DNA from: Terriglobia bacterium
Lineage (GTDB): Bacteria > Acidobacteriota > Terriglobia > JAIQFV01
Assembly: GCA_020072965.1 (NCBI GenBank)
Contig: JAIQFY010000001.1
Span: 186,001 to 250,000, forward strand
Length of the DNA stretch: 64,000 nucleotides
Direction: 5' to 3'
Shown: positions 5,213 to 8,558 of the stretch, one piece after another
Numbering within the stretch: position 1 is the first letter of the stretch
Layout: every line of letters begins with the position of its first letter
Program-made: the position numbers and the translations under genes
Notes under the pieces: generated by a model
What the model was told of the DNA's origin: nothing
The model's input: the letters and a program-made list of their open reading frames with translations, nothing else
Database searches by the model: none

Positions 5213-5365
5213 GAATCATTCTTCCAACCGGTGGACTACCGGTGGGTCATCTGCGCGGTGGACGCCATGGGCGCAACCCGCAAACAAATTCATTCCCGCC
5301 TTGCTGATCCGCCCTTCATGACTTTTTCTTTTCCGTTTTTGCTTCTTTCGTTCTACTCTTCTCTC

Positions 5366-6256
5366 ATGCAGCGGCACATAGATGCCTATCTCAACTATAT
5401 TCGCGTCGAAAAAGGGCTGGCGAACAATACCTTGGAGGCTTACCGGCGCGACCTTGCCCATTGGCAGAAGTTTTTCGCAATCCGAAAAGAGAATCCGCCC
5501 CTTGGGTCAATCTCTCGAAAAGAGGTGGTGGATTTTCTCCAGTGGCTTTACCAGCAGGGGCTGAACAGTCGCTCCGTCGCTCGGGCATTGACTGCACTTC
5601 GGAACTTTTTCAAGTTTCTCGAGCTGGATGGAGTTGTTCTGTCCAACCCCACCGCTCAGGTGGAATCGCCCAAACTCTGGAAGAAACTCCCAAAATACCT
5701 CTCCATAGCCGAGGTCGAACAGATTCTGAATGCGCCTGACCTGGAAACACCCATCGGGTTGCGCGACAAGGCGATGCTTGAACTTCTCTATGCAACCGGC
5801 TTGAGGGTGTCCGAACTGGTTTGCCTGAAATTTGCGAATCTCCATCTGGATCCGGGCTACGTCCAGTGCCTGGGAAAGGGGGATAAAGAACGGATCGTCC
5901 CCCTGGGAAAGTCGGCAGCTGCATTTATCGAACGTTACATTGCCAAAGCACGGGAGGAACTCCTGAAGCCCCGGCGGTGCGACTACCTGTTCGTCACCCA
6001 TCGCGGCGACCGCATGACCCGGCAGTCCTTCTGGATCATCATTTCATATTACGGCCGCAAAGCGGGATTGAAGACCAAGTTGACCCCACACCTCTTGCGA
6101 CATTCTTTCGCCACTCATCTGCTGGAGCGCGGCGCCGACCTGCGTTCGGTCCAGACCATGCTTGGCCACGCTGACATTTCCACGACTCAGATTTACACTC
6201 ATGTGATCAACACCCGCTTGAGAGAGATTTATCAGAAACATCATCCGCGGGCGTGA
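5366..6256 (+). CDS. xerD: Site-specific tyrosine recombinase XerD
   Basis: This 296-residue integrase-family recombinase probably resolves chromosome dimers at dif together with a XerC partner not seen here. The N-terminal SAM-like domain reads VEKGLANNTLEAYRRDL. The catalytic residues are present: Arg in ATGLRVSEL (about 146), Lys in GKGDKERIVPL (about 171), HLLRH (about 242-246), His in MLGHADISTTQ and Tyr in IYTHV (about 277). The wording STTQIYTHV is closer to XerD than to XerC, but the assignment between the two rests on memory of the families. The frame opens at 5231, yet the ATG at 5366 (MQRHIDAYLNYIRV) is the family start. No dif-like site was identified. Confidence 0.9.
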   Translation: MQRHIDAYLNYIRVEKGLANNTLEAYRRDLAHWQKFFAIRKENPPLGSISRKEVVDFLQWLYQQGLNSRSVARALTALRNFFKFLELDGVVLSNPTAQVESPKLWKKLPKYLSIAEVEQILNAPDLETPIGLRDKAMLELLYATGLRVSELVCLKFANLHLDPGYVQCLGKGDKERIVPLGKSAAAFIERYIAKAREELLKPRRCDYLFVTHRGDRMTRQSFWIIISYYGRKAGLKTKLTPHLLRHSFATHLLERGADLRSVQTMLGHADISTTQIYTHVINTRLREIYQKHHPRA

Positions 6257-6359: not shown

Positions 6360-6466
6360 CCCTGGAACGTCAAAGATCATGGACCTTGGAGATCCGAACC
6401 CATCAAACACAGCAAAAAAAGATAGGGTCGCGGTAGGGATGCCCGTCACCGGGCACCCCCCGCACA

Positions 6467-6499
6467 GATCCGTACGTGCGCAACTAGCGCATACGGCTC
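6467..6499 (-). ncRNA. Group II intron domain V hairpin
   Basis: Reading the minus strand, GAGCCGTATGCG opens and CGCACGTACGGATC closes a 33-nt hairpin with a small TAGT-type loop. This is the length and sequence pattern of the catalytic domain V. The 3' strand ends GGATC where GGTTC is common, which would alter one base pair next to the AGC triad. A covariance search with the Rfam group II domain V model would settle it. Confidence 0.75.
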
Positions 6500-6688
6500 C
6501 TATCTTGGATGAATGGCGTCGAAGTTAACCTGACGCCCGCCAGCCAACCCCGGGGACACGTGATTCCTCCCGCGCTGTGTCGGGATCGTGTGAGGTTGTC
6601 TGACGTTCTCCTTGATCCGCGCCCTTTCCTCCCCCGCCTCCGTGGTTGGGTGGGTAGTCTCTGTCCCTTCTTTGTTCGGCGGGTTCAT
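6500..6688 (-). pseudogene. N-terminal fragment of group II intron reverse transcriptase
   Basis: The 62-residue frame begins MNPPNKEGTETTHPTTEAG and continues IKENVRQPHTIPTQRG and VSPGLAGGRQ. This resembles the leader of LtrA-type intron reverse transcriptases just before the first RT block. After GGRQ the frame runs nine more codons and stops beside domain V. No RT active-site motif (YADD) or maturase domain remains in any frame. It is a deletion remnant, not a functional small protein. Confidence 0.6.
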
Positions 6689-7096
6689 AGGTACTATGGC
6701 GCAGTCCGACTCCTATCCTTCGTGCGTGCCAGCCGTACGGCGTTTCGCCTTCTCTGGCCGGTCTGCTGTCTCGACGACCGCAGACAAAGGGGAGGTCTCC
6801 CGGTTCTCGTGCATGAAGTTTCTTGGCGTGCACGGGGTCTACGACTACGGGGGATCCAGGTCGGGCTCACGGTCTGGCGCCCGCACTGATGTGGCCTTTC
6901 CCTTACGACCACAGGGTCGGCACCCCCAAGGGAGTTTTCGAAGCTCAATACCCGGCCCACCAGTGCCCCTGTCTACGCTTCAACTGAGTCACCTCACGGC
7001 GCCCCAGGCAAGACTCGGAGTCAGGATGGTTCGTTACTCCTTTCCTGTGCAGCTCTTTCATCTGCTACTTCATGCCGGTTTATCCCGGCGCTCGGC

Positions 7097-7314
7097 CGCA
7101 TCTCCACTATCCACTTTGCCCGTGAATGTGGCTGGGCCGCTGCGGATCCACGGTGGGGGGTTGGACCAAATTATATCTTGTGGTAATGACATGAACTGGC
7201 GATCGCCCTCTAATCTAAAGCCAAGAAGGGATAAAGGCGATGCCACCCCACCTCCTTGTTGAAAACGCCAGTCATTGCTTAAACCGGACGCCAAAAGTGG
7301 ATAGTGGAGATGCG
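7097..7314. repeat. 218-bp structure with perfect 21-nt inverted repeat ends
   Basis: The 21-nt sequence beginning AAAGTGGATAGTGG at 7294-7314 is repeated exactly, in inverse, at 7097-7117. A diverged direct copy of the right end (18 of 23 positions, counting the following ACCCCA) lies at 7228-7250. Frames inside carry no recognisable protein. It could be a MITE or the two ends of a decayed insertion sequence. The family was not recognised. Confidence 0.55.
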
Positions 7315-7333
7315 ACCCCAACAGCCATTCGTA

Positions 7334-7382: not shown

Positions 7383-8558
7383 TTAGGACAGCAGCGATTG
7401 CAAAAAGCTGGTGCCGCGGGTGAGGGCGAAGCCGAAGTTTTCGGCCACGGTCTGGCCAAGGTCGGAAAGCGTGGGGCGGGTCCCCAAATCGAGATTTCCC
7501 CGGGACGTCTTCGAATAGGCGAGCAGAGGAACATATTCACGAGTGTGGTCAGTGGTCTTCATGTAGGTCGGATCACACCCATGGTCAGCGGTAATCATCA
7601 ACAGATCATCGGGCCTAATCACCTCCATCAACTGCCCTAACTGCCGGTCAAACTCTTCCAGCGCGTTGGCATACCCGGCCACGTCGCGCCGATGGCCATA
7701 AAGCATGTCGAAATCCACCAGGTTCGTAAAGATCATGTCAGCGGCCTTCGACTGTACCGCATCCAAGGTCCGTTCCATTCCTTCAGTGTTGTTTTTCATT
7801 TTGACATGCTCGGAAATCCCGCGTCCGCTGTAAATATCGAAGATCTTCCCCACCGCGTAAACAGTCCGACCCTTTTCAGCCATCAGATCCAGCAGCATCG
7901 GCCTCGGAGGATCAATAGCATAATCATGCCGTCGCTCGGTGCGGGTAAAGTTTCCCGGCTTCCCGATAAAGGGCCGGGCGATGACCCGTGCGACGCGATC
8001 TTTTCCGACGAGCAGGTTCCGGGCGATCTCGCACATCCGATAAAGCTCAGCAACCGGGATGACCTCTTCGTGGGTGGCAATCTGAAAGACGCTGTCTCCA
8101 GAGGTGTAGACAATTGGAGAGCCGGTGCGCAGATGCTCTTCGCCAAGATCCTTGATAATCTCGGTTCCGGACGCCGGAATATTGCCGAGGGTCTTTCGAC
8201 CAATGGCCTTTTCGAAAGCTTCGATCAGGTAGCGTGGAAAGCCCTGCGGATAGGTCGGGAATGCGACCTCGGTCAAAATGCCGGCCATCTCCCAATGCCC
8301 CGCGGTCGTGTCCTTCCCTTTCGAAGCGAGGGCCATCTTTCCATAAGAGCCAATGGGAGTGACGTTCGGGGAAACATTCGAGAGCGGCCGGATTGCTCCC
8401 AGCCCCAATCGGCCTAGATTGGACAGTGTCAGCGGGCGATATTGACAGACGTGTCCGAGGGTATCCGTTCCGGCATCTCCCCACTCGGCGGCATCCGGCA
8501 TAGCCCCAATGCCGACACTGTCGAGCACGATGGTGATAATTCGTCCGAAGGATGACAT
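7383..8558 (-). CDS. deoB: Phosphopentomutase DeoB
   Basis: DeoB interconverts ribose or deoxyribose 1-phosphate and 5-phosphate, carrying sugars released by the nucleoside phosphorylases into central metabolism. The 391-residue protein has the alkaline-phosphatase-superfamily metal motifs: VLDSVGIGAMPDA and GDAGTDTLGH at the N-terminus, TAGHWEMAG in the cap region, and TADHGCDP with DHTREYVPLL near the C-terminus. Length is normal. It is the last gene of the minus-strand salvage operon, 63 bp after the amidohydrolase. Its substrates are the products of the punA and deoA enzymes encoded upstream, which strongly supports the assignment. Confidence 0.96.
   Translation of the reverse strand: MSSFGRIITIVLDSVGIGAMPDAAEWGDAGTDTLGHVCQYRPLTLSNLGRLGLGAIRPLSNVSPNVTPIGSYGKMALASKGKDTTAGHWEMAGILTEVAFPTYPQGFPRYLIEAFEKAIGRKTLGNIPASGTEIIKDLGEEHLRTGSPIVYTSGDSVFQIATHEEVIPVAELYRMCEIARNLLVGKDRVARVIARPFIGKPGNFTRTERRHDYAIDPPRPMLLDLMAEKGRTVYAVGKIFDIYSGRGISEHVKMKNNTEGMERTLDAVQSKAADMIFTNLVDFDMLYGHRRDVAGYANALEEFDRQLGQLMEVIRPDDLLMITADHGCDPTYMKTTDHTREYVPLLAYSKTSRGNLDLGTRPTLSDLGQTVAENFGFALTRGTSFLQSLLS

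Follow-up and report, generated by a model that had tools for sequence, protein, structure and literature searches.

ORF-less group II introns are rare in bacteria and nearly always occur alongside related reverse transcriptases (RTs) in the same genome, the exception being C.te.I1 of Clostridium tetani, which self-splices in vitro (PMC4424553); they are counted routinely by a survey pipeline (PMC8919778). The ORF-less introns that are served in trans, of which there is a cyanobacterial example, combine a complete ribozyme and a lost RT with RT-bearing relatives and evidence of mobility after the loss (PMC4424553, PMC8919778). Group II introns have also been found in the REP sequences of Pseudomonas putida (2/9), thus in dispersed palindromic repeats (PMC1525189). 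The RT-bearing introns of Klebsiella/E. coli plasmids (WP_004178082.1) and of Cupriavidus taiwanensis (WP_018003737.1) have the same RF02005 ribozyme, the same domain V and VI ends and the same position of the RT N-terminus as the intron discussed here, but the RT they carry is full-length (annotated at 495-570 aa, TIGR04416).

The window analyzed here, a stretch of 64,000 nucleotides from a Terriglobia bacterium (genome G000), contains a well-documented case of this rare but known kind, an ORF-less, probably trans-mobilised bacterial intron. It has all the traits listed above for the introns served in trans, but its draft assembly yielded no intact cognate RT, and it targets a MITE-like element at one of its inverted-repeat ends. 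Like C.te.I1, it is ORF-less in a genome without a known related RT (PMC4424553); it differs in that its splicing is predicted from sequence and in that RT remnants and fragments remain. Insertion into dispersed palindromic repeats is shared with the P. putida introns (PMC1525189), with the difference that here the EBS1 of the ORF-less form matches the repeat end. With one RT deletion at different loci of a pair of sister species, a predicted intact ribozyme and a matched EBS1, the system would illustrate cleanly how a non-autonomous intron behaves in nature, here lodged in the ends of a second element that also seems to be non-autonomous; it confirms rather than surprises.

The ends of the intron were fixed by comparison with the copies at C16 of G001 and at C18 and C82, and with the RT-bearing relatives. 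The close copies have CCGAGCG on the left and CCGCGAC on the right in common and diverge outside them, which places the ends at G7093 and C6427; the preliminary description had given 6433-7096. The minus-strand intron stands, with its exact limits revised. More distant relatives (L063, L073, L089 and L091) begin with GTGCG at the first column of the window intron. Compared with the 5' GUGYG and 3' AY boundaries, the 3' GAC agrees, while the 5' end is the variant GAGCG; because RT-bearing relatives of the same RNA class show this variant too, it is not a defect of the window copy. The intron is flanked by an ORF at 7383-8558 (minus) and, on the other side, by one at 5231-6256 (plus), which from their translations we take to be phosphopentomutase-like and tyrosine-recombinase-like, respectively.

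Table 1. Features of the ORF-less intron and its target in the window
Feature	Position	Strand	Basis or remark
Complete ORF-less group II intron, 667 nt	6427..7093	minus	5' GAGCG...CGAC 3'
Ribozyme domains I-III/IV, RF02005	6835..7058	minus	model 1-225 of 225, 154.3 bits, E 2e-44 (cmscan)
EBS1 (GGTCGTA), domain I hairpin loop	6904..6910	minus	7/7 pairing (with wobbles) to TGCGGCC
62-codon remnant ORF	6500..6688	minus	~54 RT N-terminal codons fused in frame to ~8 C-terminal codons and stop
Domain V (GAGCCGTATGCGCTAGTTGCGCACGTACGGATC)	6467..6499	minus	RF00029 and alignment
Domain VI hairpin	6427..6463	minus	RF00029 alignment and conserved CCCTACCGCGAC
IBS1 (TGCGGCC) in 5' exon, within inverted-repeat end of MITE-like element	7094..7100	minus	
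MITE-like element, inverted-repeat ends GGGGTCGCATCTCCACTATCC ... GGATAGTGGAGATGCGGCC	7094..7319	minus	intron in 3' arm

Domains V and VI matched RF00029 at 6501-6427 on the minus strand with 40.6 bits against a cut-off of 40 (cmscan). As the RT-bearing Cupriavidus intron scores 40.3, likewise barely over the cut-off, a low score is normal for this intron class. The catalytic AGC triad of domain V is present (GAGCC at 6499 in the same match), and the alignment gives a candidate branch-point A at 6434, bulged in domain VI and 7 nt from the 3' splice site (C6427). The domain VI hairpin was also considered as a borrowed genomic repeat, an idea that was rejected since CCCTACCGCGAC is kept in the intron class across phyla.

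The preliminary description had read this domain pair as lying right behind an RT N-terminus, with the gene body deleted and the catalytic RNA end kept, and it was correct on both points. RT residues 1-54 of an intact relative (P0001) align to 6527-6688 of the minus strand (56% identity, E 7e-8), after which the remnant goes on in frame as VNFDAIHPR, resembling the RT C-terminal end that directly precedes domain V. The segments that touch in the window, at the junction CGTCAG|GTTAACTTCGAC, stand 1.4-3.5 kb apart in complete relatives, with the RT gene between them (G096 L091, G187 L092, G297 L095, Cupriavidus L104 and Klebsiella L105). Most simply, the RT body would have been lost by a single deletion at the CAGG microhomology. 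The intron thus has no functional RT of its own, the remnant of 62 codons being all that is left; Pfam gave no match on the three overlapping ORFs of the window, and for this reason the remnant had to be recognised through its relatives. TIGR04416 was demonstrated for the RTs of G096, Klebsiella and Cupriavidus; in the RTs of three relatives, Pfam and NCBIfam detected RT models only and no endonuclease domain. The best PDB match is the GsI-IIC RT, a kind of match that does not assign the intron class.

Structured domains I-IV are evident from the full-length RF02005 match and from covariation. Within the D1-D3 portion covered by the model, the window intron forms standard pairs at 55 of 62 helix positions, on a par with the RT-bearing relatives (51-54 of 59-60); the copy of the sister species G001 has 51 of 62. 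An alignment of eight introns contains 30 RF02005 pairs changed on both sides, compared with 17 after shuffling, and none of 500 shuffles reached as high a value. Furthermore, 87.6% of the alignment cells are paired under the RF02005 structure and 33-42% under slid versions of it, a figure biased toward that structure because it was taken from the window's own match; the double-change counts depend on it less. The ribozyme is judged not to be dead and, by these comparisons, is predicted to be intact. The Infernal check with the Rfam models that had been proposed beforehand gave hits at both ends of the RNA, that of domains V and VI just above the cut-off, and the term "scar" used at that time understates the intron, although the collapse of the RT onto domain V was described exactly.

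Across seven distinct introns, the domain I loop and the 5' exon covary: their summed pairing is 45, compared with a permutation mean of 26.7, and a single one of the 5040 permutations, the true one, is as high (p ~2e-4). Because loop and exon covary across the class, EBS1 and IBS1 are identified from the data. The target they define is the end of the MITE-like element, intron-free copies of which at C47 and C24 terminate in GATGCGACCCC. Searching for the end motif gave 16 occurrences in G000 and 6 in G001, against 0 for the reversed-motif control. By comparison with IIC introns, which insert just after terminator-type hairpins, the insertions in this genus fall in inverted-repeat arms. Hairpin targeting as a class-wide rule was unsupported, as folding of the 50-nt 5' exons across the relatives gave no consistent hairpin.

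A second copy, 95-97% identical, was found in G001, a species of the same genus, at C16:64591-65068, whereas identity between the two species is 85-86% for the genes that flank the window locus. The junction of this copy reads GGC GTG CGC CAG | GTT CAC TTC GAC, with RT N-terminal codons on its left side (GGT GTG CGC CAG in G260), and the copy appears to share the RT-body deletion of the window intron, with an extra, later deletion of ~185 nt upstream. Each genome has only one complete copy of the ORF-less intron. The window locus is present without the intron in G001 (C23) and G002 (C37), and the G001 C16 locus is present and intron-free in G000 (C1:103-109 kb); since each genome has the other's site without the intron, the copies occupy non-orthologous loci. 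That one deletion recurs at both of them, each empty in the other genome, makes it most likely, provided that the junction is shared by descent, that the stripped intron moved after RT loss with an RT supplied in trans. The preliminary description had set a trans-mobilised ORF-less intron, if the 5' domains were intact, against a fossil, and the intact 5' domains together with the RT-deleted copy at another locus of the sister species support the former.

The history that would account for these data starts from a group II intron whose RT relatives show no recognised endonuclease domain. A deletion would have fused codon ~54 to the last ~8 codons, sparing the ribozyme in full along with the 5' portion of domain IV. 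The intron is inserted precisely in the 3' arm of the inverted repeat of a dispersed MITE-like element. A cognate RT/maturase would have bound domain IV in trans and aided splicing, and would have reverse-transcribed the intron into new ends of that repeat; such retrohoming of the ORF-less form into repeat ends would be the simplest account of the two loci. From the sequence comparisons, spread as a non-autonomous element through an RT in trans, by an RT-deleted intron with a predicted intact ribozyme and a matched EBS1/IBS1, is considered highly probable. Against it count the failure to find an intact cognate RT in the two drafts, the single complete copy per genome and the lower number of pairs (51 of 62) kept by the G001 copy.

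The two other explanations fare less well. RT fragments and decayed introns are plentiful in these genomes, neither draft assembly has an intact RT at present, and the deletion junction lies at the CAGG microhomology, all of which would suit a pure fossil whose RT was deleted in place and of which no copy ever moved without it. The two loci would then require either that the junction arose twice at CAGG or that both loci had been filled in the ancestor by some other process and were then lost reciprocally. This is improbable, as the G001 copy keeps RT N-terminal codons (GGCGTGCGCCAG) to the left of the junction, indicating the same junction, each of the two inserts is exactly one intron unit, placed in its own copy of the repeat, and the ribozyme pairs are retained. 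The window and G001 copies occupy an identical point of the inverted repeat GGGGTCGCAT...ATGCGACCCC, in its 3' arm and thus at the same place in the same element type, which might instead suggest that the MITE-like element, or recombination among repeats, carried the intron along. However, the interiors of the two host elements do not align, the upstream elements aligning in their ends only, the downstream flanks diverge immediately past the intron, and EBS1 has its match in the exon, so that carriage is a very remote prospect compared with retrohoming in trans.

The RT that would have served the intron is represented by fragments only, at C71, C82 and C18 in G000 and at C15 in G001; neither draft (108 and 70 contigs) yielded an intact cognate RT, and the full-length relative for which the preliminary description had proposed a search in the same genome was likewise found there only in pieces. 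On this account the intron may be stranded today. As several contigs break off within introns, an RT-bearing copy may have escaped assembly. At C14:20908-23000 of G001, an RT gene that may be CRISPR-associated precedes an ORF resembling cas1 by its translation.

Free-standing perfect or near-perfect palindromes of the form GGTCGCGGTAGGG...CCCTACCGCGACC, made of the 3' half of this intron class's domain VI and all exactly 44 bp long, occur in 14 genomes of several phyla (G000 C37:7775-7818, C89:200031-200074 and C89 near 197166; L155-L168; G001 C26). This genus has two exact 44-bp palindromes and further near-exact ones. They are rare, given that 396 genomes of the phylum yielded two sites, both in G000; a scan of viral contigs found none, and ten of the 14 loci, scanned with group II intron models, gave no match. 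The arms agree with intron domain VI, and the P. oleovorans palindrome is identical over 34/34 nt to a piece of Pseudomonas plasmid DNA, which in one record lies under a gene annotated as an RT. The palindromes could have arisen through quasi-palindrome correction or through cDNA folding back as it was synthesised. That they represent a new intron-derived dispersed repeat of "solo domain VI" hairpins, made when the cDNA of an intron end folded back and carrying a GCGACC motif that would match the EBS1 of the window intron, is a rather doubtful proposal. No literature on them was found, and such palindromes, scattered through unrelated bacteria, are less ordinary than an ORF-less intron.

Other introns of the sample deserve mention. 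G000 has a second family, of RF02003 type (C30, L031; C37, L033; C38, L032), in which domains I-IV and domain V are not separated by an RT; two of its copies are ~94% identical at different loci with unequal domain IV lengths, and the C38 copy is a 3' fragment. Truncated intron 3' ends begin directly after a dispersed-repeat arm ending in ...TGACCC at L002 (C18), L032 (C38) and L042 (G001 C64). In L089 and L090, a large serine recombinase gene (with Resolvase, Recombinase and Zn ribbon domains in L089) interrupts the group II RT gene within its conserved GTPQG/SPLLAN motif; titles and abstracts in the literature gave no relevant account of intron RT genes that contain a serine recombinase. The codons at which L089 and L090 are split are also the break points of the RTs of L094, L100, L101 and L102, the left breaks having the same sequence (CTGAACG), and those of L100, L101 and L102 are broken off at contig ends. 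In L096 (G283 C55), a relative whose RT is cut after its N-terminal part, a second intron of the same class starts within ~80 nt, in tandem. Finally, a relative of the window intron at G001 C55 (L043, L126) has its domain VI occupied by another kind of group II intron, ~840 nt long (RF02003 match), apparently forming a bacterial twintron.
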